Origin: Streptomyces sp. NBC_01498
GTDB taxonomy: Bacteria > Actinomycetota > Actinomycetes > Streptomycetales > Streptomycetaceae
DNA length: 64,000 nt
Reading direction: 5' to 3'
NCBI RefSeq assembly: GCF_036327775.1
Contig: NZ_CP109598.1
Location: 4,464,001-4,528,000, forward strand
Below, piece after piece: positions 40,901 through 55,075 of this stretch. A model generated the notes under the pieces. It saw only the letters and a program-made list of their open reading frames with translations, made no database searches and was not told where the DNA came from. How positions within the stretch are numbered: the first letter of the stretch is position 1; each line of letters opens with the position of its first letter. The translations under genes were made by a program, and so were the position numbers.

Positions 40901-41837
40901 TGTTCTGCCGGACCCCGAGGCATGGGGGAACTGCATCGATTCTCCCGGACTCACACTCGACTGTGGTTCGGCCGCAGGTGACATTCCCACTCCGTTCACC
41001 AAAGCCTTCAAGCTGCTCAAGCTCAAGAAGGTCGACAACGCCGTCGACGCCGCCAAGAAGAAGCCACGCGGCTGCAAATGCTTCCTGGCCGGCACCGACG
41101 TACTCATGGCAGACGGAAAAACCAAAGACATCGAGGAAGTCAAGCTCGGTGACAAGGTACAGGCCACAGACCCGGAAACAGGCGAGGCAGGCGCTCGAGA
41201 AGTGACCCGCCTCATCGTCACCGAGGATGACAAGCGCTTCAACACGCTGTCCGTCGCGACCGACAGAGGCATCGAAACACTCACCGCGACCCACGAGCAC
41301 CCCTTCTGGTCCCCCTCGGAGAACCGCTGGGTCGAAGCTGGCCAACTGAAACCGGCCATGACCCTGCTCACCGACGACGGCACCACCGTCATCGTGACCG
41401 CGAACCGCGCCTACGCCAAGCACGCGCGCACATACAACCTGACCGTGGACGACCTCCATACGTACTATGTGCTGGCGGGTGAGACGCCGGTACTCGTTCA
41501 CAACAGCAACTGCACAAATTGGGCCGCCAATAGCGTGAAGACATGGGGGCACACATTCAAGACTCATGGTGCCGGAGCGAAGAACACGAAGGCTCTGACC
41601 GATCGCGCTCGTAGTACCGGGAATCAGCAGGGTCAATGGCTGGATAATGACGGCGCTGCAGAGTTCTTGAAGGGACTCCATGTCGAAGGGGCCGGTCCCA
41701 GGTCGGTGCGCATTCCGGATGGGTTGGGGCAGGTAATCATGCCGGATGGGAGTATCGTCCAAGCGCGGGCAGCTACCATCGTCCCGAGTCCAAATGGACT
41801 GTACAAGACGGGATTCCCGATTATTGGCCCGAACTAG
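34974..41837 (+). CDS. RHS-repeat polymorphic toxin with HINT pretoxin domain and toxin tail 1
   Basis: The 2287-residue protein has a Sec signal (IAVVTGIALMPGLLTPVVFA), an SpvB/TcdB-like N-terminal region (PDLSISYDSGSVDGR), many RHS/YD repeats (STYDALGRIKQ, TYDLFGRKA, SEYDILGRRT), and the RHS core end YDPGIGQFISVDPL to GYSYANN (about residues 1850-1880). A Pro/Ser segment and poly-Gly linker follow. Residues about 2030-2177 are a HINT domain (CKCFLAGTDVLMADG, ATHEHPFW, YNLTVDDLHTYYVLAG, VLVHN). Cleavage at VHN would free the last ~108 residues (GHTFKTHG, LTDRARS, GQWLDNDGAAEFL), a toxin of unassigned family, perhaps an RNase. ATG 34974 follows GGGGAG. Immunity gene 41850 follows. Confidence 0.92.
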   Translation: MRGKHGTADGGRPRVRAWMSRIAVVTGIALMPGLLTPVVFADDPAPLGAPKLSAPKAAEVTPFTAKVNKKQAALMKKAADTHRKDTARAKHDRATTVTWPSAGSATLTPSGTAAAKTVVGGLPLSLAAPLTAAKKQTPVTGAVKVAVLDRGQSAKMGIKGVALTVTGPARGGSAQLALNYEKFASAYGANWAGRLQLQQLPECALTDPTAAKCRTRTPLDFTNDRAHSSVTAPVTFAPAAPSGPRTMVLALAAGSESGAGDYKATPLAASSTWEAGGSSGTFTWSYPLRTPPAAAGPAPDLSISYDSGSVDGRTASTNNQGTAIGEGFDITSSYIERKYGSCDDDGQDDKFDQCWKYDNATVVLNGQASELVKQDGDGGAPGGADEAGVWRLKNDQAATVVHSIGAENGDDNGEYWTIITGEGTKYVFGLNKLVGAPADQRTDSVWTVPVFGDDSGEPGYTSGSSFSGRDKKQAWRWNLDYVEDTHANAMSYWYAAETNHYDKLGDDNTGTAYTRGGWLKEIRYGQRANALFSGSPAASNKVVFSYKERCVATGTGCDSLTEDTRDNWPDVPLDAVCKEGDECTGNVSPSFFTRKRMTEVSTYAWKATAATPDFYPVDTWALKQQYLDPGDTGDSADQSLWLDEIRHTGRNGTETALPPVTFTHEFLANRVDGNSDDILPLHRPRLYTITSETGAQSVVNYLPADCAAGQTKPAVDTNTKRCYPVYWSPNGEETPVLDWFQKYPVEAVTTTDPHGGSEAVEHTYTYAGGGAWHYNDDPMTKEKERTWSIWRGFGQVTHITGRPGRTQSKTVTVYMRGMNGDRVLGADGKTPHATDRKSVTVTGIKAAGIADTDQYAGLTRESVTYNGAQEVSGRISDPWSKKTATQHKSYADTEAYFVRVAATHDRTNITTSGTPRDRVRSTVTAYDDYGMSETVEDKGDNAVTGDETCTRTWYARNDTAGINNLVSRTRTVAKPCATTDTALDLPADSTRPGDVVSDSATAYDSTTWTPSQQPTKGEARWTGRAASYGSDNQPAWQKTTTVTYDALGRPLTVKDTNDATTSSTTYTPAATGPLTAGTVTNAKSHATTTLFDYATAAPLKVTAPNTRITESTYDALGRIKQVWLPNSLRSGGKSPNYVYDYGITATDPPWVSTGTLQGDGAGYNTTFEIYDSQLRPRQTQSPSPLGGRVIGLTMYDDRGLAVSSQSDIWDDETAPTSVIAQTEGGQAPVQTDTTYDGAERATKTVTAHFGQVRWTTDATYTGDTVTTTAPAGGQATAMVTDALDRTTQRREYAGTQPTGSDFTTTDFTYAPAGQQATVTGPDQAKWTYTYDLFGRKATAADPDSGTSSTSYDALDQPVSTTDARGKTLMSEYDILGRRTGLWDGSKTDPAKLAAWTFDTLLQGQADTAVRYEGGLTGKAYTTKVTAYDPMYNVTGSQLTLPATDPLVTGGVPATLNFSTAYNVDGTVRSYTHPAVGGLPVEGLSNKYNDLGLQTTASGTGAYLTAAAYSELGDTRQLTLGTNQNLNQTYGYEPGTRRLKTSVVSDTLHPGRTQDLTFNQDDAGNITSIFDAATQGTGGTTKTDNQCFTYDGHRRLVEAWTPRTPDCATTGRTTANLDSAAPYWSSYTYTQGGQRKTETKHASAGNSTTTYAYGTSTGQPHPLTGTTGAKTGTYTYDKTGGTTSRPGVQAQQTLTWNSEGKLATTAEPVAGTKPATGTSYLYDADGELLISRNTTGDGDTVLYLGDGSEVRLTTQGTTKTLAGTRYYTAAGKTIAVRTATLGTSGSRLTFLAGDHHGTSSLAIDATTLAVTKRYTTPFGAPRGSAAGTWPDDKLFLGKPADAATGLTHIGAREYDPGIGQFISVDPLLSLDQHQSFNGYSYANNRPPTGSDPSGLRDPGGAQCGIISPCTGGGPEWQPSPGSGGGGGGGGGGGKGGSGGTATTPSNSKPTPSPSPGPAPYITGPAEVPFFFQLVAALVLPDPEAWGNCIDSPGLTLDCGSAAGDIPTPFTKAFKLLKLKKVDNAVDAAKKKPRGCKCFLAGTDVLMADGKTKDIEEVKLGDKVQATDPETGEAGAREVTRLIVTEDDKRFNTLSVATDRGIETLTATHEHPFWSPSENRWVEAGQLKPAMTLLTDDGTTVIVTANRAYAKHARTYNLTVDDLHTYYVLAGETPVLVHNSNCTNWAANSVKTWGHTFKTHGAGAKNTKALTDRARSTGNQQGQWLDNDGAAEFLKGLHVEGAGPRSVRIPDGLGQVIMPDGSIVQARAATIVPSPNGLYKTGFPIIGPN
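41454..41479 (+). other. Recombination core A (attL-like) in the HINT-toxin junction of rhs
   Basis: CGTACTA (41461-41467) is followed by TGTGCTGGCGGG (41468-41479). The left neighbour CTCCATA is normal HINT coding sequence, unlike cores B-D. In frame it reads HTYYVLAG, just before PVLVHN. The same 20 bases ACGTACTATGTGCTGGCGGG occur at B, C and D. The interpretation as a tyrosine-recombinase site is inferred from the layout. Confidence 0.7.
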
Positions 41838-41849
41838 GAGGCTGGAGAG

Positions 41850-42356
41850 ATGACCTTCTCTGTGTCGTTCAATCCGGCCGTGCAGTCTGGTGCTGCGGCT
41901 CCTGCTCTAGCGAGTCTGGAGCCGGGTGACGATTACGAAACCCTCGTCATGGAGGCGTGTAGCGCCCTCTCCGATGCTGGAGGCGGCAGATTCCACATTG
42001 GCGGTTTCGGGAACGATGAGTGGCCGCTCGATGTCGGGTATGACTTGTCTGCCTTCATGGAGCAGTTCCCGTCGCTGATGGCGAGTGTGCGTGAACGTCG
42101 CGAAGTCGAGGTGGATCTTTACTCGCAGGGTATCGAGAGGACTTTGACCTTCCGTCCAAGCGAGGACCTGGTGATGATTCACTGCGAGTCGCGGACCAAT
42201 TGGGTTCCAAACCCAGAGTTCGAGAGCATTGCGCAAAGTGAGCTAGTCGCGATGCTCTCGAAATTGGCCGAAGACTTCGCACGGGGGTTGAAGGCGATTA
42301 AGTTCGACCTGTCGGAGGCCGCACCATTCGATCGTTGGCTGGAGGGTGAGGTGTAG
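41850..42356 (+). CDS. Putative immunity protein 1
   Basis: This 168-residue protein starts 12 bp after the toxin stop, at an ATG preceded by AGGAGG. It has no signal peptide or membrane segment and is acidic (many Glu/Asp), as is common for cytoplasmic immunity proteins. No family was recognised (VDLYSQGIERTLTFRPSEDLVMIHCESR is quoted only in part: LTFRPSEDLVMIH). Its role is inferred from its place after the toxin tail. Base use is visibly less G+C-rich than the flanking chromosome. Confidence 0.75.
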   Translation: MTFSVSFNPAVQSGAAAPALASLEPGDDYETLVMEACSALSDAGGGRFHIGGFGNDEWPLDVGYDLSAFMEQFPSLMASVRERREVEVDLYSQGIERTLTFRPSEDLVMIHCESRTNWVPNPEFESIAQSELVAMLSKLAEDFARGLKAIKFDLSEAAPFDRWLEGEV

Positions 42357-42406
42357 CCTCACGGCCCGATCCTGCAATCCACGTGTTGGATAGCAGTAGC
42401 AAAATT

Positions 42407-42439
42407 GAAGCCCCGCCAGGTGTGTCCTGGCGGGGCTTC
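42407..42439 (+). terminator. Terminator of toxin-immunity cassette 1
   Basis: GAAGCCCCGCCAGG and CCTGGCGGGGCTTC form a perfect 14-bp stem with loop TGTGT, 50 bp after the immunity stop. Confidence 0.85.
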
Positions 42440-42448
42440 TGCGGTGAG

Positions 42449-42469
42449 TGACGGCAGTAGTTGACGGCA
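42449..42469. repeat. Integrase arm-type repeats, left end of element 1
   Basis: TGACGGCA occurs at 42449-42456 and 42462-42469, just outside the integrase 3' end. The same octamer is found after cassettes 2, 3 and 4 (48753, 52578 and 52590, 54454) and at the far ends (47717, 51308, 53498). That placement fits arm-binding sites of a tyrosine integrase. Confidence 0.6.
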
Positions 42470-42472
42470 ACG

Positions 42473-43780
42473 TCAGTGGACGGTGGCTCCGCACAGCGGC
42501 GGGTCATCGCCGTTGTCGCGGGTCGACTCGTCGTTGCCAGGGATGTCAAGGGCGGTGCCGAGGGTGTCTATGGCCTGGCGCTGGAGGCGGAGTCGCACAT
42601 GGGCGTAGACGGTGGCGGTGACGCCGATGTGGGCGTGGCCGAGGAGTTCCTTGATCACGACGAGTTCGACGCCCTGTTCCAGGAGCAGGGTGGCGGTGGA
42701 GTGTCTGAGGTCGTGGAAGCGGATGCGGCGGAGGCCGGCCTTACGGAGGAGTGTGGTGAAGGTCCGGGTGAGGTTGGTCGGGTCGATCGCTCTTCCCTGC
42801 GGCGTGGTGAACACGTACCCGTTGTGCTGCCACTCGGCGCCCGCCGTGTCACGGTCGCTCTGCTGCTCTTCGTGGCGGTGCTTCAGCGACTGGATGCAGC
42901 GGTCAGGGAGGGCGATGCGGCGCTCGGAGGCCCGAGTCTTGGTTGGCAAAGCGGTGAGGCCGTCTGTGTTGGTGCGCTGCAATGTTCGGCGGATGGCAGC
43001 GGTGCCCCGGTCAAGGTTGAGGTCTTCCCAGCGGAGACCGAGGAGTTCACCCTTGCGGAGCCCGGTGTGGAGAGCGAGTTCGAACAGGGCGTGCAGCCGG
43101 TGTTCGTTCGCGGCGGCGAGGAAATGGCGGGCTTCTTCAGCGGTGAGTGGTTCGAAGCGTCGGGGCCGAGGCGTGCCGGTGCGGACGTTGCGGGCGACGT
43201 TGCGCGGGATCTCCTCCTCGCGCACGGCGTGTTCCAGGGCGGACTTGAGGACGGAGTGGATGTAGGTCAGCGTCAGCGGCGAGAGCCGTTTGGAGCAGCA
43301 TGTTCCGGTGGCGCAGCAACGGGGTTGATCGCGGCCGGCGTCGATGCTGCGGGCACAGCACTGGCAGGTGGTGCGGAGTTGGTTGAGCCAGGTGCGGACG
43401 TCCCTGGCGGTGAGCTTGGCGAGCTTCTTCTTGCCCAGGCCGGGGATGAGGTAGTTGTTCACGCAGGCGGTGTAGCGGGTGTGGGTGTTCTCGCGGAGGT
43501 GGTGGACGGCAACGGCCTTCAGCCAGTACGTCAGGTACGCGGCTAGGCTGCCCTGCGCGGAGGGTACGGGGACCCCGCGGTTGCTGTTGGCGATCTTCTC
43601 GGTGAGCTTGGCCAGGGCTTCCTTGCGGGTGGTGCCGTAGACGCGGACGCGCTTGCGGGTGTTGCCGCGGGCGAGGACATATCCGGCGGCCTCCCAGCGG
43701 CTGTCCTTGCGCTGGTAGACGGTTCCGTCACCGTTGGCGCGGATACGGCGGGAGGCGGGGGTGTCGCGGGGTGTGGTCAT
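42473..43780 (-). CDS. Tyrosine-type integrase of element 1, intact
   Basis: The 435-residue protein has an N-terminal arm-binding part (GTVYQRKDSRWEAAGYV), a core-binding SAM-like domain (LRENTHTRYTACVNNYLIPGLG) with an unusual Cys-rich insert (CQCCARS, RCCATGTCCSKR) that could bind zinc, and the catalytic domain with HTGLRKGELLGLRW (first Arg), FHDLRHSTATLLL (HxxR), and LGHAHIGVTATVYAH (His and nucleophile Tyr). It would cut and join DNA at the CGTACTA core. It is the best preserved of four copies. The ATG overlaps the xis stop by one base. Confidence 0.93.
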   Translation of the reverse strand: MTTPRDTPASRRIRANGDGTVYQRKDSRWEAAGYVLARGNTRKRVRVYGTTRKEALAKLTEKIANSNRGVPVPSAQGSLAAYLTYWLKAVAVHHLRENTHTRYTACVNNYLIPGLGKKKLAKLTARDVRTWLNQLRTTCQCCARSIDAGRDQPRCCATGTCCSKRLSPLTLTYIHSVLKSALEHAVREEEIPRNVARNVRTGTPRPRRFEPLTAEEARHFLAAANEHRLHALFELALHTGLRKGELLGLRWEDLNLDRGTAAIRRTLQRTNTDGLTALPTKTRASERRIALPDRCIQSLKHRHEEQQSDRDTAGAEWQHNGYVFTTPQGRAIDPTNLTRTFTTLLRKAGLRRIRFHDLRHSTATLLLEQGVELVVIKELLGHAHIGVTATVYAHVRLRLQRQAIDTLGTALDIPGNDESTRDNGDDPPLCGATVH

Positions 43781-44007
43781 CAGGCGGCGGCTTCCTGTTC
43801 GAGGCGGGTGCGGATGAAGTCGGTGAGGGCGTGGGTGGGGATGCGGCGGGCGCGGCCGAGGGTGATCGAGGTGAGCTGGCCGGAGCGGAGCAGGTCGTAG
43901 ACGGCGGAACGGCCGAGCTGGAGGCGGGCCATCACCTGGGGCACCGTGAGCAGATCCAGCGCCGGTGCCACCTCCGTGCGGAGGACGGTGGGCGGGGGCG
44001 GGATCAT
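43780..44007 (-). CDS. Excisionase-like HTH protein of element 1
   Basis: The 75-residue protein has a MerR/excisionase-type helix-turn-helix: LLTVPQVMARLQLGRSAVYDLLRSGQL followed by a wing TLGRARRIPTHAL (helix core VPQVMARLQLGRSAVYDL). In pSAM2-type elements Xis directs the integrase to excise. Both start and stop overlap neighbours by 1 bp (rep-xis-int order, as in pSAM2), so the three are translationally coupled. Confidence 0.85.
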   Translation of the reverse strand: MIPPPPTVLRTEVAPALDLLTVPQVMARLQLGRSAVYDLLRSGQLTSITLGRARRIPTHALTDFIRTRLEQEAAA

Positions 44008-45338
44008 CAGCAGCCCCCTTCCGCGATGAACTGCCGTTCCAGTTCCTTGCGGTGCCACACGCCGGCCGCGAGGAGCGCGGCGCCGGGGCTGTAGCCCGAG
44101 CCCAGGTAGTCCCACCGACCGACGACGAGCGTGGTCGTCGGGTCCGGCTCGGGCAGGCCGGTGTGGGTGCGGGCCTGTTCGGTGCGCCAGGCGCGGCGGG
44201 CGTCGCGCAGCGCGCCGAGGGTGGTGGAGTAGCTGCGGGACTTGGTGGAGAAGTGGCCCCGGAAGCCGAGCATGTGCGCCCACTTCCAGAGCTTGAGATC
44301 GGCGAACTCCGGCAGCTTTCCCAGCTCCCAGCAGGTGCGGATCATCTGCCGCACGTGCCGGGCGACGGCGAGCCGGGGCAACGGCCGGGCCTGCCCGGTG
44401 CCGCCGCAGGCGGTGCACGGGAGCGGGGTCCCGTGGGGGAGGACGGTGGCGCCGCGTCCCTGGCAGGGGCGGCAGAACAGGGCGCGGTCGAGGGTGCCGG
44501 AGGCGTCGGCGGACTTGGTGGCGTATTTCGCCACGTAGGCGGCCACGGCCTGGTCGGTGAGTTCGGCGTCGGTGCCGAAGGAGGCGATCTCGCGCACGTC
44601 GAACTGTTCGCCCCAGCCGAGTTCGCGTTCCCCGACCGCATCCGAGGCGACCGTGACGCGGACCCGCGCGGCGGCGGCGCGGGCGGCCTTGGTGAGTACG
44701 GCGACGGTGGCGTACGGCGGCGGGGGCTGGCTGCTGCCGTCCGGGCCGTCGAGTCGGATGACGGCGTGGAAGTGGACCAGACCGCGCTGCTGGTACTCGG
44801 CGACCTTGGCGAAGGACACCCGCAGGACCGCGCGGGCCGCCTTCTGGGTCATGCCGAGCCCGGCGGCGATCTCGCGGCGCAGGTAGGTGGTGAAGCGGGC
44901 CCACAGCGTGGAGGCGTAGGCGTTGAACAAGACCGCGCCTTCGTAGTCGTACGTCGCGGGGTTCAGCGGCGTCCCGATCAGGGCGTCGTTAAGTTCGTGG
45001 AGCTTGCGGCAGCGGCAGGGCCGGATGTCGCCGCCGGGGGTGGTGAGGCGGTTGTGGACGGGGCCGAAGGATGGCGGGGTGAGAGTGACGAAGACGCGGG
45101 GGTGGGTGCGGACGGCGTCGGGCACGGTCTTGCCGCCGGAGAGGCCGGCGCGGATGAGGTGGTAGGTGTCGGCGGCGTAGAGGCGGGAGCAGGCCGGGCA
45201 ACGGGAGGCGCGGCGGTTGCCGCACGTGGTGAGCAGGCTGCCTGTGGGCTCGTCGGAGGAGGCGTAGGAACGCAGGGCCTCGCCGGTCGTGGTGTCGGCG
45301 GTGGTGGTGTGGCACAGGCGAGCGCCTTCCGGCCGCAC
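44007..45338 (-). pseudogene. RepSA-like replication initiator, N-terminus missing
   Basis: The protein resembles the rolling-circle replication initiators of actinomycete integrative elements (RepSA type): CGNRRASRCPACSRLYAADTYHLIRAGL, RVFVTLTPPSFGPVH, GLVHFHAVIRLDG (HUH-like His pair; two-residue spacing), YVAKYATKSADASGTLDRA and FRGHFSTKSRSYSTTLGALR (quoted by parts). Homologues carry another ~50 residues before this start. Here the match stops at about 45315, exactly where a truncated GntR gene on the other strand begins, so the 5' end seems lost in a deletion. GTG 45338 could still give a product. Confidence 0.75.
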
Positions 45339-45919: not shown

Positions 45920-45992
45920 AGGACCGGCTCCGCGTCCGGCTCGCGGTCGGGCTGGATACTCCAGGTCTCGTAGCGCAGGACCGAGCGAGGGG

Positions 45993-46235: not shown

Positions 46236-46490
46236 CGGGACCACCCCGGCGAGGCGGTCCGCGACCGGGCGTCCAGTCGCAGGGCGGGAACACATGGGGT
46301 GGCGCTCATTCGCACGGTGACGCTCCTCGGCGGCGTTGATGCGTGCCCCTGGGCCTGTTGGTGCCGCAGGGTCGGCACCGATCCTTACGCCGGTCACCGG
46401 GACGAAGGAACCTCCACCAAACCCCACTTCAGGACGTCCCACGCCGTGTAGAACGTCCCTGGTGCCGTCCTGAGACGAAGGGGGAGACTC

Positions 46491-47237
46491 GTGCCGAACG
46501 AGAGACTACGAGCCGTCATGGCGGCGGGAGGCTGGACGTACGCCGTACTCGCTCAGCAGGTCGAGGTCGACCCGAAGTCGGTCGAGCGCTGGGTGAACCT
46601 CGGGCGTATCCCACGTCGTGCCACCGCCCTCCAGGCGGCCAAGGCCCTGGGAGAAGACGTGCACGCACTCTGGCCGGCGCTCCGCCAGGCCCGCCCCGCC
46701 CGCGCCATCAGCCCCGAGCTGGTCGCGCTCTACGAACAGCGGGCCGATATCCCCGTCTCGACGTTCACCGACCTGATGACCCAGGCCCGGGAACAGATCG
46801 ACATCCTCGTCTACGCGGCCGTCTTCCTCCACGAGGCGTACCCCCGGTTGAACGAACTCCTCACCGAACGCGCCGCCGAAGGCTGCACCGTCCGCATCGC
46901 GATCGGGGACCCCGACAGCGACAACGTCCAAGCCCGCGGCCAAGAGGAGCGGTTCGGCCACGGCATCGAATCCCGCTGCTGCCTCGCCCTCATGCACTAC
47001 AGGCCCCTCGCCGGCACCCCCGGCATCGAAGTCCGCACCCATGGCACCACGCTCTACAACTCCCTCTACCGCGCCGACGACCAGCAACTCGTCAACGCAC
47101 ACGTCTGGGGCGTCAACGCCTACGCCGCCCCCGTATGGCATCTTCGCCGTCACGAGACAGGCGGCATGTTCGACACCTACGCCGAGAGCTTCGACGCCGT
47201 GTGGACGACGGCAACACCCGTACGAGAGGACGGCTGA
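46491..47237 (+). CDS. XRE-family regulator with phospholipase D-like C-terminal domain
   Basis: The GTG start follows GGGGGAGA. Residues 1-60 form a lambda-repressor-like HTH (LRAVMAAGGWTYAVLAQQVE, VDPKSVERWVNLGRIPRRAT). The C-terminal ~150 residues (ISPELVALYEQRADIPVSTF, IDILVYAAVFLHEAYP, VRIAIGDPDSDNVQARG, HGTTLYNSLYRADDQQLVN) resemble the DUF5919/PLD-like domain seen on actinomycete XRE proteins. It is followed 2 bp later by the NUDIX gene. It probably regulates element functions (inference). Confidence 0.85.
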   Translation: MPNERLRAVMAAGGWTYAVLAQQVEVDPKSVERWVNLGRIPRRATALQAAKALGEDVHALWPALRQARPARAISPELVALYEQRADIPVSTFTDLMTQAREQIDILVYAAVFLHEAYPRLNELLTERAAEGCTVRIAIGDPDSDNVQARGQEERFGHGIESRCCLALMHYRPLAGTPGIEVRTHGTTLYNSLYRADDQQLVNAHVWGVNAYAAPVWHLRRHETGGMFDTYAESFDAVWTTATPVREDG

Positions 47238-47239
47238 CC

Positions 47240-47710
47240 GTGGCCCGCACCGAGTACTACGACGACCCGAACGCCCCCAGGCCGAACAGCATGGTCGTCG
47301 CCGCGTCCGCCGTCGTCACCGACGACCACGGGCGCATCCTCCTCCAGCGCCGCCGCGACAACGACCTATGGGCTCTGCCCGGAGGCGGCATGCACCTCAC
47401 CGACTCCCTGCCCGGCACAGCCGTCCGCGAGGTCAAGGAAGAGACCGGCCTCGACGTGGAGATCACCGGCCTGGTCGGCACTTACACCGACCCGAAGCAC
47501 ATCATCGCCTACACCGACGGTGAGGTCCGCCGTCAGTTCAACGTCTGCTTCACCACCCGCATCACCGGCGGCCAACTGGAGATCTCCGACGAGTCCACCG
47601 AACTCCGGTTTGTGCCATCAGAAGAGATCGAGCGGTTGCCGATGCACCACACCCAACAACTCAGGCTCCAACACTTCCTGGAACAGCGCGAAAGGCCGTA
47701 CCTGGGCTGA
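47240..47710 (+). CDS. NUDIX hydrolase-like protein (Pif-like)
   Basis: The 156-residue protein has the NUDIX box GGGMHLTDSLPGTAVREVKEETGL (pattern Gx5Ex7REVxEExGx; here the first Glu position is Asp/Ser-rich, the REVKEE core is intact). In pSAM2 the Pif protein, which blocks redundant transfer into cells already carrying the element, contains a NUDIX motif, and the place in this element suggests the same role. GTG 47240 lies just after the XRE stop. Confidence 0.85.
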   Translation: MARTEYYDDPNAPRPNSMVVAASAVVTDDHGRILLQRRRDNDLWALPGGGMHLTDSLPGTAVREVKEETGLDVEITGLVGTYTDPKHIIAYTDGEVRRQFNVCFTTRITGGQLEISDESTELRFVPSEEIERLPMHHTQQLRLQHFLEQRERPYLG

Positions 47711-47716
47711 ACCGTC

Positions 47717-47826
47717 TGACGGCAGTAGCGACGGCAACAACCCCGCACAACCACGGACACCCACGCACTTCACCAGACCAGCAAACTGCACTTGACCTGC
47801 GAAAAAGCAGGTCAAAGGCTTCGCGT
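47717..47826. repeat. Right end of element 1: arm repeats and inverted repeat
   Basis: TGACGGCA (47717-47724) lies in the palindrome CCGTCTGACGG, and CGACGGCA follows at 47729. TTGACCTGC (47792-47800) and GCAGGTCAA (47807-47815) form a perfect 9-bp inverted repeat. Similar but worn copies lie at the same distance before cores C and D, so this is a conserved element end, probably attachment-site arms. It also acts as the gap after the NUDIX gene. Confidence 0.6.
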
Positions 47827-47851
47827 AGCACACGTACTATGTGCTGGCGGG
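47827..47851 (+). other. Recombination core B (attR-like of element 1)
   Basis: AGCACA (47827-47832), CGTACTA (47833-47839) and TGTGCTGGCGGG (47840-47851): the half-sites AGCACA/TGTGCT are inverted around a 7-bp spacer. The left half is element sequence, the right half starts toxin tail 2. A TAG (47826-47828) stops the toxin frame just upstream. Confidence 0.7.
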
Positions 47852-48245
47852 GGCTAGGCCGGTACTCGTCCACAATTGCAACGGAAAGCTCGCTGACCTT
47901 CCGGTCCATGAGAGGCCGACACGTTTTTATGCAAAGGCGAGTGAGATGCTGGACCGCATCCAGGGGAACCCTGCGACTCGCGAGCAGATGTATGGCAGCG
48001 CCGATGCAGGGCACGGCGGTGTGACATCGCTGAGTAAGGACGACCTGATCCGATTCGGCGGGCCGAATGGACGTGAACCAATTACCGGGTTCAGGGACTT
48101 CGCTCCTGGGGATGACATAAATCTTCCCGGATCCCGGCTGCATATCGCTGACGGGAATAACAGAACCGAGAAGATAAGGAACCGCGTTCTGGATGGGCGG
48201 ATGCACCCGGATACACTCATTGAAATGATGATCGGAGGGAATTAG
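47829..48245 (+). CDS. Silent toxin tail 2 (HINT end plus toxin)
   Basis: The frame begins HTYYVLAG, PVLVHNC at core B, i.e. the last HINT strand and cleavage point, but has no signal, RHS part or obvious RBS; GTG 47841 is the first possible start. The ~120-residue tail is unassigned. The segment HIADGNNRTEKIRNRVLDG has a faint ParB-like look (DGxxR) and is preceded by FAPGDDINLPGSRL. It would become an RHS-fused toxin if element 1 were excised, because cores A and B are in the same frame. The stop overlaps the immunity GTG. Confidence 0.7.
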   Translation, partial: HTYYVLAGARPVLVHNCNGKLADLPVHERPTRFYAKASEMLDRIQGNPATREQMYGSADAGHGGVTSLSKDDLIRFGGPNGREPITGFRDFAPGDDINLPGSRLHIADGNNRTEKIRNRVLDGRMHPDTLIEMMIGGN

Positions 48246-48652
48246 TGGAGGTGTGGGCTGTCCGACTGGAGTCCTCCGTACACTTCACGGCGTACGTGCT
48301 GCGTGGGGATGGTGAGCTTCCCGAGAGGACCTGGGTGTGCCTGCGGTCCCCTGAATCACTGCCGCCGGTGTCCTGGCTCGGCTGTTGGAGCACTCAGGGC
48401 AGGGTCGATGCTGGCCAGGTGGGTCGATTGCTGGATGCCATCCAGCAATCGATTGGGGAGCCCGTGGCTGTTGGCCCTTATGGGCCAATAGTCAGAGCTT
48501 CGATCTACTTCGATTCTTGGGATTCTTGGGGGGGTGGGTCTCCGCGTCCGATTGCTGGGTTCCGGCCGTGGGAATCCAATCCGAGAGGGATCGAAGAAAT
48601 AGGCGTCAAATCTCTTGACTTCTCGCGTGGAGGTGTGCAGGTCGAGGTTTGA
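48245..48652 (+). CDS. Putative immunity protein 2
   Basis: The 135-residue protein starts with GTG at the last base of the toxin 2 stop, with GGAGGG upstream. It is rich in Trp and Gly (DSWDSWGGGSPRPIAGF) and has no signal peptide. No family was recognised. Function is inferred from the position right after the toxin tail and before a terminator, the same layout as cassette 1. Confidence 0.7.
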   Translation: MEVWAVRLESSVHFTAYVLRGDGELPERTWVCLRSPESLPPVSWLGCWSTQGRVDAGQVGRLLDAIQQSIGEPVAVGPYGPIVRASIYFDSWDSWGGGSPRPIAGFRPWESNPRGIEEIGVKSLDFSRGGVQVEV

Positions 48653-48697
48653 GATGCCTTGTTCGGGCGATTCCCCGTAGAACATCTGAGGAATTAC

Positions 48698-48736: not shown

Positions 48737-48763
48737 GGTTTGGGAGGGGGCTTGACGGCAACG

Positions 48764-50033
48764 TCAGCGGACGACGGCTGGGGCAGGTGGGTCTTCAGGT
48801 CCATCGTCGGTCGACCCGAGGGCCTTGCCGAGGGTGTCGATGGCTTGGCGTTGGAGGCGGAGTCGGACGTGGGCGTAGACGCCGGCGGTGACGCCGATGT
48901 GGGCGTGGCCGAGGAGTTCCTTGATCACGACGAGTTCGACGCCCTGTTCCAGGAGCAGGGTCGCGGTCGAGCGGCGGAGGTCGTGGAAGCGGATGCTGCG
49001 GAGGCCGGCCCGGTTGAGGAAGCTGCGGAAGCGGCGGGTGAGGTTGGCAGGATCGAGAGGCCGCCCGGTCGGCGTGATGAAGACGAGGCCGCTGTCTCTC
49101 AACGCTGACCCTGCGATCTCTCGCTCCGTGTCCTGCTGCCTGCTTGTGCTCTTTGAGGGAGTGGAGGTATTCGGTGGGGAGGGCGATTCGGCGTTCGGAT
49201 GCCCGGGTTTTGGTGGGCAGATGCGTGAGGCCGCCGGTGCGGGTGCGCTGGAGTGAGCGCCGGATGCTGGCCGTTCCGGTGGTGAGGTCGAGGTCTTCCC
49301 AGTGGAGGCCGAGGAGTTCGCCCTTGCGGAGTCCGGTGCGCAGGGCGAGTTCGTACAGCGCGTGGAGCCGGTCGGCGCGGGCGGCGTCGAGGAACTGGCG
49401 GGCCTCGGCCGCTGTAAGCGGACGGAAGCGCCTAGGCTGGTGCGTGGTGGTCTTGACGTTGCGAGCGACGTTGCGCGGCAGCTCGTCTTCGCGGACCGCG
49501 TGTTCCAGCGCTGATTTAAGCACCGAGTGCACGTAGGTCACGGTCAAAGCGGACAGCCGCTTCTGGCAGCACTCGCCGATGGCGCAGCACCTCTTCCGTT
49601 CGGTGTCCAGTCCCTGAGCGCAGCACTGGCAGGTGGTGCGGAGCCGGTCAAGGAAGGTGCGGACGTCCTTGGCGGTGAGGCGGGCGATCTTCTTGACGCC
49701 GAGGCCGGGGACGAGGTGGAGTCGGACGCAGGCGGCGTAGCGGGTGTGGGTGTTCTCGCGGAGCCGGTGGATGGCGACGCTGCCCAGCCAGTAGGTGAGG
49801 TAGTCGGTGACGGTGCTGTCGGCCGTGGCGACGGGGAGGCCGAGGTTGCTGTCGGCGATCTTCTCGGCGAGTTTGTCGGCGGCTTCTCTCCGCGTGCTGC
49901 CGTAGACACGGACGCGTTTGCGGGTGCCGTTGGCGGCGAGGACGTAGCCGGCGGCTTCCCAGCGGCCGTCCTTTCGCTGGTAGATGGTGCCTTCACCGTT
50001 GGCGCGGGCCGTCTTGCGCTTGGGGGCGGTCAT
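48764..50033 (-). pseudogene. Tyrosine integrase of element 2, one frameshift
   Basis: The reading frame from ATG 50033 matches integrase 1 closely (GTIYQRKDGRWEAAGYV, LRENTHTRYAACV, the Cys-rich insert CQCCAQG and RCCAIGECCQKR, LRTGLRKGELLG) up to SLKEHKQ. One extra G in CAGGCAGCAGG (complement of about 49134-49144) shifts the frame. The true continuation, QQDTEREIAGSALRDSGLVF, then FHDLRRSTATLLL and LGHAHIGVTAGVYAH, lies in the next frame to 48764. Translated as is, the protein loses the HxxR and Tyr region, so it should be inactive. Confidence 0.85.
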
Positions 50034-50610: not shown

Positions 50611-50639
50611 GTCTACATGCGACGCCACCCGGAGGGCCA

Positions 50640-50873
50640 CCAGCGAGCCCCCGCACCGTCTACCGGCACGTCACCCACGCCATCCGCCACGCCCCTGAAG
50701 GTGGCATCACCTACGAGGCGTTCTGCGCCACTGCCGACTGCGGAGCCGAATCCGGACCCCACGCCGAGCAGGAAGCCGCACAGGACTGGGCGCTCCGCCA
50801 CACCGGACGCATCGGCCACGACCTCTTCAGACGCGTCGTCACCGACCACGCCAAGGCCACCCGAGCCGAATAG
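50640..50873 (+). pseudogene. DUF7848-like small protein, 5' end unclear
   Basis: The frame reads VYRHVTHAIRHAPEGGITYE, CATADCGAESG and AQDWALRHTGRIGHDLFRRV, ending at 50873. This fits the short DUF7848-type proteins common in Streptomyces (Cys pair, W..RH..... H..Y/F-R). No start codon is seen before VYR, which lies close to the rep deletion junction, so the first residues are probably lost. Confidence 0.5.
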
Positions 50874-51416
50874 AGCCCCGTCGGCAACCGGAACAGGACC
50901 CACACGCCGCAGACCATCGCACCAGGCCAGAAGCCCAGCCGAACGCTCAGCCACCGGCCACGGCGTACCGCCGAAGCGGGGTGCGTCCAAACTTTCTCTA
51001 CGTCTTCAAGGCGACCCGCTGACGCGGGTCGCGCACGGCACGGCCGCCCACCCGGCCCGCTCTCGGCTCCGCCACCGCGGGCCGGCCAGCGACCAGGCCG
51101 CACAGAAACAGCACAGCGTTGCGCCGGAAGCGAGGAGAAGCCGGACGCGCCCGCCCGGCGAGCGCCAGGCAGACGGCGAGGCGACGGCGGGGAGTTGGCC
51201 GAGGGCAGGCTCGGAGGTGGGGGCGGTCGGCTCCGTGGGCTTTACCCACCTCCCCGGGCAGGACACCGGCCAAAGCCCACTCCGCCACCCTCGCGCGCGT
51301 GGCCGTCTGACGGCAACGCCGACGACAACACAGGCGCACAACACGGCACTTCCCCGCACACCCACGGACAGGCCGGAATTCGCCGACCAGCGAAAACGCA
51401 GATGACAGCACTTCGG
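50874..51416. other. Right end of element 2, non-coding
   Basis: This 543-bp stretch has no convincing gene. Its last ~260 bp resemble the stretch before core D: a block ending GGTCGGCTCCGTGGGCTTTA (51228-51247 here, 53298 there), then GTCTGACGGCA (51305-51315) and a worn inverted repeat before the core. It is the conserved end of the element family. Confidence 0.6.
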
Positions 51417-51443
51417 CCAGCACACGTACTATGTGCTGGCGGG
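51417..51443 (+). other. Recombination core C, best inverted half-sites
   Basis: CCAGCACA (51417-51424), CGTACTA (51425-51431), TGTGCTGG (51432-51439): perfect 8-bp inverted arms round a 7-bp spacer, the expected form of a tyrosine-recombinase core. The toxin frame is stopped by TGA at 51403-51405 just upstream. Confidence 0.75.
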
Positions 51444-51849
51444 GGCCACGCCCGTACTGGTTCACAATTGCGGAACAGGTCCCCGAGATGGCGCAGGTCT
51501 GGGTCCGGATGAACTCATGTCGAAGGCAGAAGAGCTTCGAGATGAGTACGCCGGAGAAATGGCCCAGCTCTCCAATAGGAAGAGGCCAGCCACTGTCACG
51601 GCTGGATACAATTCGGAGACCGGACAGTACGCCGCAGGTGCATCGTCCAAGGGCGTCTGCGCAGAGACTTGCGTCGTCAATCAGCTCGGAGGCGACCCGT
51701 CGAAGATTGTATTCACTACTGCCGTAAGGCCTCGGACCGGGGCGCCGATCAATATTTGCGTCTCATGCGAAGGCCAGTTCGGACGTAGTGGGTTTAAGGG
51801 GGCGGGTACAGTGTTCGACTCAGACGTATTGAGACTCTTCGATGAGTAA
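51421..51849 (+). CDS. Silent toxin tail 3, deaminase-like
   Basis: The frame begins HTYYVLAGATPVLVHNC at core C and lacks any upstream HINT or RHS part; GTG 51433 is the first possible start. The tail has the zinc motifs of the cytidine-deaminase superfamily: GVCAETCVVNQL (CAE) and INICVSCEGQFG (CxxC), with a GYNSETGQYAAGASSKG strand before and an AVRPRTGAPI strand between. This is the layout of YwqJ-type toxin deaminases, which edit nucleic acids or nucleotides (family knowledge). Activity and target are not shown here. Confidence 0.75.
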   Translation, partial: HTYYVLAGATPVLVHNCGTGPRDGAGLGPDELMSKAEELRDEYAGEMAQLSNRKRPATVTAGYNSETGQYAAGASSKGVCAETCVVNQLGGDPSKIVFTTAVRPRTGAPINICVSCEGQFGRSGFKGAGTVFDSDVLRLFDE

Positions 51850-51873
51850 CACTTAAGGGTGGTTGAGGCCGAT

Positions 51874-52434
51874 ATGGACCTTGAACTGAGACGGCATTCC
51901 TGGGGATCACTCCAAGGGGTCTCTGGTGATGCTCGTATACTCGGGGATGCCCTCTGGGAGCTGTCCCGCGCTGGCAGCCGGGAGGCTGCGGTGGGCGCTG
52001 CGCGCCGGGTAGAGCAGGTCTCATTTGGGCAAGGACTTCTATGTGAAGCCTCAACCGCCTTGGCGTCTAGTCTCGTTCATTGTCTATGGCGCTGCTCGGA
52101 CTATTCTGAAGATCTAATTCTAGGGCTTCTCTCGGATATTTCAGCCGCCGTGGTGAGCGAGGAGGATCCGGGCGTATACGGCCCGGCGTCCGAAGCGGAG
52201 TGCATGAAGGAGATCAGCCTAGGGTATCCGGCCTACGTTGAGATTCTTGAAACGAGCGCAACGCTTGATTCTCGTACGGCTTGCATCGACCTAATTCTCA
52301 TGTGTGGGCTATTTAGTAGCGAGCTTAGGTCTCGGTCCGTATATTTCCTGGAGAGAGCTAAAGGGCTAGCCGGGCTAGAGGGAAATCTAGGCCTAATTTC
52401 TGCCTCGATTGAAGAATTGCGAGACGCTGGCTAA
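51874..52434 (+). CDS. Putative immunity protein 3
   Basis: ATG 51874 follows GAGG by 5 nt; GTG 51859 is an alternative. The 186-residue protein is helical in look (ASTALASSLVHCLWRCSDYS, LILGLLSDISAAVV) and has no signal peptide. It resembles HEAT-like immunity proteins only in a general way, and no family is assigned. The DNA is clearly atypical: bases 52021-52080 are 30 G+C out of 60, far below the surrounding chromosome, which supports horizontal origin. Confidence 0.7.
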   Translation: MDLELRRHSWGSLQGVSGDARILGDALWELSRAGSREAAVGAARRVEQVSFGQGLLCEASTALASSLVHCLWRCSDYSEDLILGLLSDISAAVVSEEDPGVYGPASEAECMKEISLGYPAYVEILETSATLDSRTACIDLILMCGLFSSELRSRSVYFLERAKGLAGLEGNLGLISASIEELRDAG

Positions 52435-52535
52435 TTTTCTCGGAATTCTCGAGACATCTCCGTTGGTAGGGGTGGTCTCGACGTTCAGGGATGAGCAGAC
52501 TGATCTCCGTCGGATTTGATGTCGCCGAGGATCTG

Positions 52536-52572
52536 CCGAAGGCCCGCCGGAATGCTTCCGGCAGGCCTTCGG
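52536..52572 (+). terminator. Terminator of cassette 3
   Basis: CCGAAGGCCCGCCGGAA and TTCCGGCAGGCCTTCGG pair with one mismatch (17-bp stem, 3-nt loop), about 100 bp after immunity 3. Two TGACGGCA arms (52578, 52590) follow. Confidence 0.8.
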
Positions 52573-52600
52573 GGCTTTGACGGCAACGGTGACGGCAACG

Positions 52601-53205
52601 TCAGTGGACGACGGCTGCGATGGGTGGGTCTTCAGGGTCGTCGTCGGCCTGGCCGAGCGCTTCGTTAAGGGTGTCGATGGCATCGCGCTGGAGGCGGATT
52701 CGGACGTGCGCGTAGACGGTCGCAGTGACGCCGATGTGGGCGTGGCTCAACAGTTCCTTGATAACGACGAGTTCCACTCCTTGCTCCAGGAGGAGAAGGC
52801 CGCCGAGTGACGGAGGTCGTGGAAGCGGATCGTCCGGAGCCCGGCCTTGTGGAGGAGGCGGCGGAAGCGGCGGGTGAGGTTGGTGGGGTCGAGCGGCCTG
52901 CCCTTCGGGGTGGTTAAGACGAGCCCGTTGTCCGTCCATCCCGTTCCGGCTGCCCCGCGTTCTTCGTGCTGTCGTTGCCAGCGGGTCTTGAGGGAGTGGA
53001 GGCATTCAGTGGGAAGGGCGATGCGGCGTTCGGATGCGCGGGTCTTGGTGGGCAGGTGCGTAAGGCCGCCGGTGGGGGTCCGCTGGAGCGAGCGCCGGAT
53101 GCCGGCCGTTCCGGCGTCGAGGTCAAGGCCCTCCCAAGCGGAGGCCGAGGAGTTCACCCTTGCGGAGCCCGGTGCGCAGGGCGAGTTCGTACAGCGCGTG
53201 GAGCC
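52601..53205 (-). pseudogene. Tyrosine integrase remnant of element 3
   Basis: Only the catalytic half is left: LHALYELALRTGLRKGELLG at the upstream end, GIRRSLQRTPTGGLTHLPTK, FHDLRHSAA, then LLEQGVELVVIKELLSHAHI and VYAHVRIRLQRDAI. At least two frameshifts are present, near 53140 (extra base after GLR) and near 52800 (in the HxxR region). The arm-binding and core-binding domains are missing; sequence similarity ends near 53205. It cannot give an active integrase. Confidence 0.8.
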
Positions 53206-53592
53206 GAGCCCGGACGCACCTGCACCACGAGGGCCAGGCCGACGGCGAGACAGCGGCAGGGAGTTGGCCGGTGCGCGGCTCGCGGGTGGGGCCGGTCGGC
53301 TCCGTGGGCTTTAACCCACCTGTTCAGGCCGGGGCCCGCGTCGGGCAAGGCCAGGGGGCCACTCGTTCAGAATTCCGGTCAGGCCCAAAGCCCGCCCGAG
53401 TTGCCGGACAGCCTACGGCCCCCTGACCATGCCCGACCCCAACCCGAACAGGACACCGGCCAAAGCCCACTCCCCCGCCCTCACGCACGTAGCCGTCTGA
53501 CGGCAACAGGGTGCGCACAACACCGCACTTCCACGCACGCCCACGGACTGGCCGAATTCAGCTGACCTGCGAAACCGCAGATGAAAGCACCT
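53206..53592. other. Right end of element 3, non-coding
   Basis: There is no gene in this ~390-bp stretch. It contains GGTCGGCTCCGTGGGCTTTA (53298-53317), GTCTGACGGCA (53495-53505) and CTGACCTGC followed by GCAGATGAAAGC, a worn form of the inverted repeat at 47792-47815. It directly joins the integrase remnant, so xis and rep have been lost. Confidence 0.6.
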
Positions 53593-53622
53593 CAGCACAC
53601 ACACGTACTATGTGCTGGCGGG
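53593..53622 (+). other. Recombination core D
   Basis: CAGCACA (53593-53599) is separated from CGTACTA (53604-53610) by an extra CACA; TGTGCTGGCGGG follows (53611-53622). It looks like core C with a short CA expansion in the left half-site, which may have inactivated it. Confidence 0.65.
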
Positions 53623-54046
53623 GACGACGCCGGTCCTGGTTCACAACTGCAACCTGGGTGACTATGCCGACAGTCTGCGTGCTGGCTTCAATAAAACTGA
53701 TGGCCCCTTCTTTGCGGCGAAATATACATCACCGTCAGGGCGAACCTATTTTGGTCACTCGGGTCATGACCTGACGCCAGCTCCCGGTGGAGAAGTGGAT
53801 TCTCTCGTGCGGCAGTTCACGCCTGAGGGGGGTCGCTACCATGCGGGATGTGCTGAAACGATGTGCCTCATCCAGGCGGAGGCGGCCGAGGGTGCGGCCG
53901 GGATCCGAGGGGGATCGTTCGAAGTGGTAAAGGTGCGGGGATTGAATTCGCCGCCCGGTGGCGCGCACGGCACGCCTGCCAGTCCATGTGCGTTGGTCTG
54001 TCAGCCCAGGCTGCAGCATCAGGGAATCAGTTTCGAAGGTGGTTGA
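53600..54046 (+). CDS. Silent toxin tail 4, deaminase-like
   Basis: The frame begins HTYYVLAGTTPVLVHNC at core D; GTG 53612 is the first possible start. The tail contains RYHAGCAETMCLIQAEAAEG (CAE motif) and SPCALVCQPRLQHQGI (second Cys pair), the pattern of the deaminase superfamily, although the second pair is spaced C-x3-C and not the usual C-x2-C. It would be a nucleic-acid or nucleotide deaminase toxin if active. It ends by TGA just before the immunity gene. Confidence 0.65.
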   Translation, partial: HTYYVLAGTTPVLVHNCNLGDYADSLRAGFNKTDGPFFAAKYTSPSGRTYFGHSGHDLTPAPGGEVDSLVRQFTPEGGRYHAGCAETMCLIQAEAAEGAAGIRGGSFEVVKVRGLNSPPGGAHGTPASPCALVCQPRLQHQGISFEGG

Positions 54047-54047
54047 T

Positions 54048-54389
54048 GTGGCCAGAGAGCACCTCCAGGTTAATCGATTCGGGTTTGCCGAATACGAAGA
54101 CATGATTGAGCTCGCCCATGGAGTAGATGCTCCAAGGGTGGTAGGAGTGTTGAGTTCGATCGTGGAGCTGGTTCTCGCAGGGGAAGACGACATGCTCGAT
54201 TCGCTATCGGATGGTGCGCAAGCAGATTTCGTAGTCCCCCTAGGAATGTGCGCGAGGATGCTTTCGAGTGGTGATTATTCGGCGCTGGAGCTGGTCTCTG
54301 CCGCCTGCACCGTGAGATATGCCGCCGAATCGCACATGTCTGAGTTCTCGGACAGCCTCGCGCAGATGTTGTCTCGGCTGCCACACTGA
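54048..54389 (+). CDS. Putative immunity protein 4
   Basis: GTG 54048 follows GAAGGTGG by 5 nt and lies 1 bp after the toxin 4 stop; GTG 54039 is an overlapping alternative. The 113-residue acidic helical protein (YEDMIELAHGVDAPRVVGVL, FVVPLGMCARMLSSGDYSAL) has no signal peptide and no recognised family. The role is inferred from position. Confidence 0.65.
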   Translation: MAREHLQVNRFGFAEYEDMIELAHGVDAPRVVGVLSSIVELVLAGEDDMLDSLSDGAQADFVVPLGMCARMLSSGDYSALELVSAACTVRYAAESHMSEFSDSLAQMLSRLPH

Positions 54390-54404
54390 GTGACGCTAGC
54401 GATC

Positions 54405-54449
54405 GCAAATATCAGCCCCGTCGAGCTGCGCTCGGCGGGGCTGATTTGC
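54405..54449 (+). terminator. Terminator of cassette 4
   Basis: GCAAATATCAGCCCCG and CGGGGCTGATTTGC pair, with CGAG/CTCG continuing the stem (one 2-nt bulge, one mismatch), 15 bp after immunity 4. TGACGGCA (54454) follows. Confidence 0.75.
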
Positions 54450-54518
54450 CGTTTGACGGCAGTAGTTGACGGCGACGGCGGCGGACACCAGCTGTCCGCC
54501 GCCGTCGCCGTACGTATG

Positions 54519-55075
54519 TCAGGGGTGGTCGAGGGCGCGGCCGAGGAGGTCGATGGCATCGCGCTGGAGGCGGAGTCGGACGTGGGCGTAGACGGTGGCG
54601 GTGACGCCGATGTGGGCGTGGCCGAGGAGTTCCTTGATCACGACGAGGTCGACGCCCTGTTCCAAGAGCAGGGTGGCAGTCGAGTGGCGGAGGTCGTGGA
54701 ATCGGTGGCGAAGGCCGGCCTTGCGGAGGAGCGTGGTGAAGGTCCGCGTGAGGTTGGTCGGGTCGATCGCTCTTCCCTGCGGCGTGGTGAACACGTACCC
54801 GTTGTGCTGCCACTCGATGCCTGCCGTGTGCCGTTCACGCCGCTGCTCCTCGTGGTGGTGCTTGAGCGACTGGAGATAGCGGGCGGGAAGGGCGATGCGG
54901 CGCTCGGAGGCCCGGGTCTTGGTGGGCAACGTGGTGAGTCCGCCCGTGTTGGTGCGCTGCAAGGTGCGGCGGATGGCAGCGGTGCCCCGGTCGAGGTTGA
55001 GGTCTTCCCAGCGGAGACCGAGGAGTTCGCCCTTGCGCAGCCCGGTGTGGTGAGCGAGTTCGAACAGGGCGAGCC
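54519..55075 (-). pseudogene. Tyrosine integrase remnant of element 4
   Basis: The catalytic half of an integrase very close to integrase 1 is preserved in one frame: LALFELAHHTGLRKGELLGL, AAIRRTLQRTNTGGLTTLPTK (parts), HRFHDLRHSTATLLLEQGVD and LGHAHIGVTATVYAH, ending ALDHP. The ~200 N-terminal residues are missing, and similarity stops near 55075. One residue is lost before HDLRH (LRHRFHD against LRRIRFHD). No core or arm follows, so the outer end of this element is gone. Confidence 0.85.

Follow-up and report, generated by a model that had tools for sequence, protein, structure and literature searches.

A window of 64,000 nucleotides (positions 4,464,001-4,528,000 of the single-contig, 7.27 Mb genome of Streptomyces sp. 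NBC_01498) contains an rhs gene for a predicted secreted toxin of the RHS/HINT type, followed by an array of further tails and integrase genes. This array very probably represents an accretion of elements of the actinomycete integrative and conjugative element (AICE) type, which would attach at ACGTACTATGT (within CACACGTACTATGTG), where the sequence encodes HTYYV near the HINT end of rhs. A site-specific mechanism by which such elements may swap the tail of the toxin is strongly supported by comparative genomics.

Each element has, in order, a core in frame with a toxin tail, a candidate immunity gene, int, xis, rep and further genes, with arm repeats and an in-frame stop codon preceding the core at the element's other end. 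In the mechanism proposed here, the integrase would recombine the circular element (attP) with the core of rhs (attB), after which the rhs frame would continue through the tail brought by the element, next to which lies the matching immunity gene, and the old tail and immunity gene would be left on the far side (attR) behind the stop codon. Hence the toxin of a displaced tail would no longer be made within the secreted protein. With repeated insertion an array would build up, always with the newest tail fused to rhs; loss of int would ground the array; and excision would restore the old tail.

Occupied sites, empty sites and a linked integrase

One rhs gene is common to five related plasmids. 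In Streptomyces goshikiensis CGMCC 4.1796 and NBC_00909 it is fused directly to a 129-aa tail, behind which no integrase was found either by annotation or by integrase search. In S. goshikiensis NBC_01191 the rhs gene is 99.15% identical to that of NBC_00909 over 21.5 kb, with the match ending 46 nt past the core start; there follow 26,271 bp made up of three tandem units (9608, 6370 and 10,293 bp), each with a core and tail at its start and an integrase inside, and then the 129-aa tail, which matches CGMCC 4.1796 from the core on (99.87% over 3.8 kb). The immunity protein WP_271245322.1 is common to NBC_01191 and CGMCC 4.1796, and NBC_00909 has another accession. That the same rhs should directly precede a displaced tail in element-free strains, with the break at CGTACTA, was the check put forward in an earlier, sequence-only reading of the window (the original prediction), and S. 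goshikiensis provides this, with the junction bracketed around CGTACTA.

Compared with attB, attL has two mismatches in the 500 nt upstream (at -1 and -120) and its first downstream mismatch at +12, and attR has one mismatch in the 500 nt downstream and its first upstream mismatch at -4. These positions place the exchange within -3 to +11, that is, within the 15 nt CACACGTACTATGTG, which contains CGTACTA. (The attL base at -1 is T, not C, which such an exchange leaves unexplained.) A crossover near +36, as first read from pairs of ends sharing a tail, was ruled out by a larger set of ends and by S. goshikiensis, both of which give -3 to +11. The core itself, CACA-CGTACTA-TGTG, is an inverted repeat flanking 7 nt, which is the usual form of a tyrosine-recombinase core.

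The ADI95-16 and NBC_00283 plasmids have the rhs gene described above with two additional tails; that of ADI95-16 contains a displaced tail preceded by a stop, and no integrase was matched there. A more distant pair of genomes agrees, at the level of sequence, with the occupied/empty reading: the rhs of G130 (locus L106) and that of G332 (L182) are 77% identical over 3.3 kb, the match stopping some 44 nt beyond the start of the core, and the tail that G332 has fused to its rhs recurs in G130 10,665 bp further on (74% over 596 bp). A DNA search of G130 relatives found no closer relative of this rhs than G332. Both comparisons support the predicted integration, into the same codon stretch of rhs, of an element that would carry a HINT end, toxin and immunity gene.

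Linkage between the core and an integrase was explored in the window, loci L074-L153, four plasmid loci and 80 named contigs (L174-L213 being left out). Within the genus, a degenerate 23-nt core pattern was matched in 198 of 392 genomes (a reversed-pattern control matched none) and the integrase in 154 of 392 at E <= 1e-60; the 80 regions compared were drawn from among the matches listed, most being chosen by an integrase of at least 69% identity, 20 by an integrase of 43-51% and a few by core pairs. The exact 11-nt core ACGTACTATGT lies no more than 2.6 kb past the int 3' end, on the opposite strand, in 73 of 83 integrase rows with at least 65% identity. Minus three identical copies, this corresponds to 70 of 80 distinct integrases, with each other arrangement of side and strand occurring in 0/80; a search for core and integrase near HINT-toxin junctions in other Streptomyces genomes had been suggested in the original prediction. 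The distance from the int 3' end to the core has a median of 988 nt (range 689-2336). No exact core was found past the int 3' end in any of 62 rows of less similar integrases, nor, allowing three mismatches, in any of the 20 regions chosen by 43-51% integrases. For the named contigs alone, with up to two mismatches, a core is present at 24/32 integrases of at least 65% identity, at 1/2 of 50-64% and at 1/46 below 50%, this last case adjoining an integrase fragment. In a tree of 107 rows (at least 40% identity) all 73 core-linked rows fall inside one clade of 84 with an SH-aLRT of 99, the tree being a quick-method, midpoint-rooted one with long-branch warnings (L269 included). One core-linked integrase, nested among Streptomycetaceae rows, comes from Microtetraspora sp. 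NBRC 13810 (L267; Streptosporangiaceae), where there is a displaced core too.

Several further observations concern this integrase family. In Actinocrinis (L269; contig L250:3367-6761), which belongs to another family, there is a 57% integrase--the sole row at 52-65%--with the same core, an upstream stop, a tail and an open reading frame (ORF), but here core and int share one strand, so that this is a relative with a different arrangement. Four integrases of the core-linked family lie within 22 kb in G424 (contig 777, 31,984-53,413). The L079 integrase of G300 has an equal-scoring twin near 9.146 Mb, each about 122 kb from a contig end, possibly within terminal inverted repeats. At two rhs loci of G079 (L093 and L097) the 400 nt before the core are identical, yet tails and integrases differ. 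No close integrase was found in IMG/VR (best 28%) or in a phage collection (best 32%).

A peptide pattern yielded 153 HINT ends from 101 loci, 104 of them 'fused' (upstream frame longer than 60 codons) and 49 'displaced' (60 codons or fewer); these form a non-random sample, 40 of the 101 loci having been chosen by core pattern and most others by integrase. (At least 3 of the 104 fused ends, at L089, L100 and L102, have no HINT-like sequence upstream.) Integrase pieces of at least 60% identity occur within 2.5 kb of 65/104 fused and 24/49 displaced ends. Of the three reading frames, the one through the core is the longest at 103/111 cores, with a median of 126 codons as against 43 and 24. Displaced cores are preceded by an in-frame stop, either directly before the His codon (26), five codons ahead (22) or sixteen codons ahead (1; n = 49), and by the arm repeat TGACGGCA, which lies at -300 to -20 (280 nt) of 47/49 displaced cores but only 3/104 fused ones. 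The same motif is found near 76 of 77 int 3' ends, as compared with 3 of 77 int bodies. Often a hairpin lies directly ahead of a displaced core (mean longest stem 5.3, versus 4.0 for fused cores and 3.9 for shuffles). At integrase-linked ends ACG TAC TAT hardly varies at its third codon positions, unlike the codons that follow; TAT makes up 6.3% of the Tyr codons of the upstream rhs frames, as against 87/89 at integrase-linked cores.

Comparison of these ends supports independent assortment of tails and rhs bodies, with the integrase staying with the core. At 85% identity or more, no pair among the 153 ends shares both upstream sequence and tail: 106 pairs share the upstream sequence only (20 of these being fused-fused and the rest involving displaced ends, that is, element arms) and 14 the tail only. 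Loosening the cut to 75% gives 17 same-tail pairs, plus one pair (L184/L200) that shares both. The 147 tails of at least 50 aa fall into 91 clusters, 15 of which have both fused and displaced members. Among 20 tail representatives, six have a match to an effector-type Pfam family: Scabin-like and related ADP-ribosyltransferases, CdiA-CT RNase A, AHH nuclease and Ntox27, plus EndoU and nucleotidyltransferase, these two below the curated cutoff.

The array of NBC_01498 and the parts of its elements

The exact 20-nt core occurs four times in the window, starting at 41460, 47832, 51424 and 53603 (there were no matches in 100 shuffles), and always in frame. As had been predicted, the HINT end is thus present once in a full rhs gene and three times downstream, each with a different tail; from the core onward it is there in all four copies, though copies 2-4 hold the last part of HINT alone. 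The core frame (TYYVLAG..PVLVHN) is open for 125-147 codons at all four cores, with open stretches of 137, 141 and 147 codons in copies 2, 3 and 4. The rhs frame is open into core 1 only; at cores 2-4 a stop interrupts it 0 or 5 codons ahead of the His codon. Copy 1 is unlike the other three in the sequence leading up to the core, and copies 3 and 4 have an element arm in common (84% over 138 nt, family D9). Host-gene sequence ahead of the boundary, a hallmark of homologously displaced orphan tails, was not found in window copies 2-4, which have element arms and a stop instead; L152 is among the loci where it does occur.

Each of the four tails, all different, is followed by an adjacent candidate immunity ORF, in line with the prediction and as judged by position, and then by an integrase gene or remnant on the opposite strand: the gene is intact after tail 1 and split between two frames after tail 2, and remnants are left after tails 3 and 4. 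The integrase remnant behind tail 4 suggests that the last tail, and hence all four, was probably delivered by an element. Of eleven copies of TGACGGCA in the window (shuffle mean 3.1), nine lie within the array, where cores 2, 3 and 4 are each preceded by the repeat and all four integrases have it next to their 3' end.

The rhs gene (34974..41837, plus strand) encodes RHS repeats, an RHS core and a PT-HINT domain (PF07591, 8e-22; TIGR03696; TIGR01443) with tail 1 as an in-frame fusion, which is the organization of an RHS/HINT polymorphic toxin: an RHS core, then a processing domain and a variable C-terminal tail. Core 1, the putative attL (41460..41479, plus; exact 20-mer), lies in frame within the HINT coding sequence, and tail 1 (41460..41837, plus), consisting of the presumably element-borne HINT end and a tail domain, has no Pfam or PHROG match. 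Behind it are candidate immunity gene 1 (41850..42356, plus; placed by position only, no family match), a strong hairpin of 14 pairs found by terminator scan, with its T run on the minus strand (42407..42439), and two int-side arm repeats TGACGGCA found by repeat search (42449..42469, plus). The module of tail 1, immunity gene and int is 97.5% identical over 2115 bp to one at L084, where it is displaced; in the window it is fused. The intact tyrosine integrase of element 1 (42473..43780, minus) matches PF00589 (2e-30) and also PF14659; its residues R242, H356, R359, H382 and Y392, presumably the catalytic ones, are invariant in the integrase alignment. Next come a Xis-like helix-turn-helix (HTH) protein (43780..44004, minus; phrog_66, 8e-6, with HTH_17 and, below cutoff, excise matched in a longer ORF), a RepSA replication initiator of the pSAM2 type (44007..45338, minus; PF20199, 9e-141; NCBIfam RepSA at 519 bits, not reaching the cutoff of 700), an XRE-like regulator (46491..47237, plus; PF13560, 1e-5, 26.1 bits versus a cutoff of 27) and a NUDIX protein (47240..47710, plus; PF00293, 1e-17, inside ORF 46343-47710). 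The far end of element 1 (47717..47828, plus) has an arm repeat TGACGGCA, a hairpin and an in-frame TAG ahead of the core.

Core 2 (47832..47851, plus; exact 20-mer) would be both the attR of element 1 and the left end of unit 2, in which the displaced tail 2 (47832..48245, plus; open core frame, no Pfam match) and candidate immunity gene 2 (48245..48652, plus; by position only, no Pfam match) are followed by an arm repeat (48753) and the split integrase (together 48753..50027, minus). An arm repeat TGACGGCA at 51308..51315 (plus) precedes core 3 and the displaced tail 3 (51424..51849, plus; exact 20-mer, open core frame, no Pfam match), behind which are candidate immunity gene 3 (51859..52434, plus; by position only, no Pfam match) and arm repeats (52578 and 52590) with the unit 3 integrase remnant (52578..53215, minus). 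Likewise, a copy of TGACGGCA at 53498..53505 (plus) precedes core 4 and the displaced tail 4 (53603..54046, plus; exact 20-mer, open core frame), and these are followed by candidate immunity gene 4 (54045..54389, plus; by position only) and an arm repeat with the unit 4 integrase remnant (54454..55082, minus). Tail 4 is 92.7% identical over 913 bp to an orphan tail in G349 (L104).

A terminator had been predicted after every immunity gene, and of this little stood: there is the one strong hairpin after immunity gene 1, with its T run on the minus strand, GC-rich hairpins behind tails 2-4 that, judged by eye, have no T run, and five terminator-like sites in the array region as compared with 6.6 in shuffles. 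As to the predicted pSAM2/AICE-like elements between the tails, element 1 contains int, Xis-like, RepSA, XRE-like and NUDIX genes, and no FtsK/TraB gene was recognised there among the ORFs scanned. Judged by gene content, the elements are of the AICE type--that is, they have Int, Xis and RepSA, with FtsK in plasmid relatives. Features of AICEs found here are a tyrosine integrase, a Xis-like gene beside int (a weak but positive match), RepSA, and att repeats together with an empty site in relatives. The plasmid loci jointly have, in an incomplete gene table, FtsK, DUF2637, replication initiator, HTH/Xis, integrase, GntR-type, XRE-type and NUDIX genes; FtsK is annotated in L228, L229 and L231, and not in the incomplete gene table of L230.

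The array, first delimited as 41457..55075, does contain the cores and tails but makes up only the 3' portion of a larger rhs block, which is roughly 24 kb long (~30,807-55,203). This block is absent from all 20 relatives compared (20 out of 47 other genomes having the downstream flank), which run from the gene ending at 30806 to conserved sequence past 55203 with no rhs match longer than 250 bp and no HINT end between. Because the block is missing from 20/20 relatives, rhs itself is accessory, and the window locus was uninformative as an empty-site test for the tails. A LamG-domain ORF upstream of rhs (32941-34818) belongs to the absent block. The same genome has a second rhs locus near 2.78 Mb (L153; 2,774,000-2,793,900) with two cores and a partial integrase, the displaced tail of which matches a tail fused to a different rhs in G377 (L203; 93% over 977 bp).

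Points against integration and alternative explanations

Various observations weigh against site-specific integration, or against its being the only process at work. Ten of the 80 distinct integrases have no exact core nearby: three of these have a core with one mismatch (L086, L100 and L138), one has a flank of only 0.6 kb (L266), and near the remaining six no core was found (L098, L143, L255, L258, L260 and L261). Within the named contigs 8 of 32 integrases are without a core, 3 of these having a flank shorter than 1.8 kb. Core and int-side arm repeats are separated by about 0.7-1.2 kb holding the toxin-immunity pair, a long distance for the attP of a tyrosine integrase. The codon TAT also predominates (36/39) at fused ends with no integrase nearby, though most such loci were chosen by core pattern. 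No FtsK/TraB gene (the putative transfer function) was recognised among the scanned ORFs of element 1 in the window. As to the predicted toxicity of the tails, Pfam matched neither 14 of the 20 tail representatives nor any of the four window tails; none of the latter was matched in PHROGs, tails 2-4 were unmatched in NCBIfam and tail 3 had no meaningful PDB sequence match, and of ten tail representatives compared with NCBIfam nine had no match and one a weak match (ParB, kinase) far below cutoff. The NBC_00283 plasmid has a different tail with no second HINT end or core and no integrase match. Second tails are preceded by HINT sequence, as in homologous displacement, at L152, L206 and L231 and in S. 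xanthophaeus; NBC_00283, S. xanthophaeus and L152 give the look of homologous exchange. Moreover, nucleotides +20 to +44 are only 75-87% identical in same-tail pairs, as compared with 94% for the tail and 69-80% for unrelated pairs, the variation often falling in the codon after GG; this variability calls for a second exchange process, or for selection there. On these sequence patterns, homologous-type exchange seems to occur at these rhs loci as well.

It might be supposed, then, that homologous recombination between orphan tails and rhs does all of the swapping and that the integrases are bystanders that have decayed alongside. The second tails with HINT-like sequence upstream (L152, L206, L231), the NBC_00283 tail replaced without trace of an element and the extra variability at +20 to +44 are what such a process would leave, but the oriented link of the core to one integrase clade (70/80, with 0 in other arrangements and 0/62 outside the clade), the element arms rather than HINT sequence before displaced cores (arm repeat 47/49 vs 3/104) and the 15-nt junction bracket in S. 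goshikiensis make it very improbable as the general explanation. Still less credible, and indeed already contradicted, is the notion that the array is one old block, vertically inherited. Some modules stay highly alike from species to species over a considerable length (97.5% over 2.1 kb), yet the rhs block is missing at the window locus in 20/20 relatives, a module that is fused in the window is found displaced at L084, and no pair of the 153 ends shares upstream sequence and tail at 85% or more (one pair does so at 75%).

A selfish origin deserves more serious consideration. Integration may be real and the conserved gene simply a safe site, the 3' end carried along avoiding breakage of that gene and the toxin-immunity pair serving as an addiction or exclusion device, with re-arming of the host as a by-product; many integrative elements do replace the 3' end of their target gene. 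The decay seen in the array fits selfish accretion, and the NUDIX protein of pSAM2 is described as acting in exclusion (PMC3218068). Here, however, what replaces the old end is not a copy of it (147 tails form 91 clusters, 15 with fused and displaced members), and every window tail has its own adjacent ORF. As the sole account this is possible, though the less likely side of the matter, and it can be true together with the tail-swapping mechanism preferred here.

Relation to known systems and implications

Integration into a coding sequence with a replacement end, expression of the newest cassette and recombinase-driven change of a C-terminus are familiar from 3'-end-replacing elements, integrons and shufflons, respectively. 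Replacement ends normally keep function, and neither integron cassettes nor shufflon segments belong to elements of a conjugative type that insert a toxin tail along with its antidote. As described in PMC3218068 and PMC9513070, pSAM2 and other AICEs resemble the present elements in their tyrosine integrase, Xis and RepSA, in an FtsK-annotated protein (here in the plasmid relatives), in GntR/XRE-type regulators and NUDIX, and in tandem accretion at one site. The AICEs treated there mostly attach at the 3' end of a tRNA gene, whereas here attachment is inside a toxin gene, and their attachment end, unlike the present one, does not encode an in-frame toxin tail and candidate immunity gene between core and int-side arms.

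The orphan rhs-CT/rhsI and cdiA-CT/cdiI arrays of PMC3150448 and PMC4927057 likewise consist of a full toxin gene and then displaced tails with immunity genes, the tails there, as here, generally having no translation starts. In those accounts exchange is ascribed to recombination between conserved sequences, the mechanism being called unknown or site-specific recombination only suggested, whereas in the present case the site, junction and integrase can be named. PMC4927057 takes integrases near orphan modules displaced downstream to suggest site-specific recombination, PMC5727410 mentions that Rhs-associated integrases might help and leaves this for further work, and PMC3482391 notes recombinases near polyimmunity loci. 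In the type VI secretion system (T6SS) arrays of Vibrio cholerae (PMC5361080) and in Aux3 (PMC7721734) new effector-immunity pairs displace old ones; PMC5361080 speaks of no evidence so far for an integrase driving insertion of effector-immunity pairs, and Aux3, which does move by site-specific recombination, is a whole cluster, in contrast to a tail inserted in a toxin gene. Toxin-immunity cassettes of Mycobacterium abscessus prophages (PMC8092301, PMC9934374) also adjoin an attachment junction and are exchanged between elements, but as presented there they carry complete toxin genes and integration does not build the toxin.

Within the open-licence literature searched, no description was found of elements inserting at the HINT-toxin boundary; as a mechanism of toxin diversification this appears to be without known precedent, and the element itself is of the AICE type with an unusual site and cargo. 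PMC9513070 puts at 14 the conjugative elements that lie within protein-coding genes in a single Streptomyces population, and tail-swapping elements may sit unrecognised among those it lists. In the sources cited, the arrival of tails in polymorphic toxin genes is attributed to homologous recombination with orphan tails, is called unknown, or has integrases or recombinases merely suggested for it; here the site, the enzyme and both empty and occupied alleles can be named. It appears probable, on balance, that a class of conjugative-type elements has made rhs an integron-like platform, in which each insertion creates a new fusion and carries its antidote as cargo between core and int-side arms, old tails are stopped, their immunity genes are kept (and may still be expressed) and excision can restore the old tail--a platform that would be Streptomycetaceae-wide and would have crossed to Streptosporangiaceae. 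In practical terms, an exact 11-nt core beside one integrase clade provides a simple rule for finding new and old toxin-immunity modules of Streptomyces. More generally, the insertion of a mobile element would do more than add genes, in that it would alter one domain within a protein of the host; if this is true, each insertion re-arms the host as the old ending is pushed downstream.

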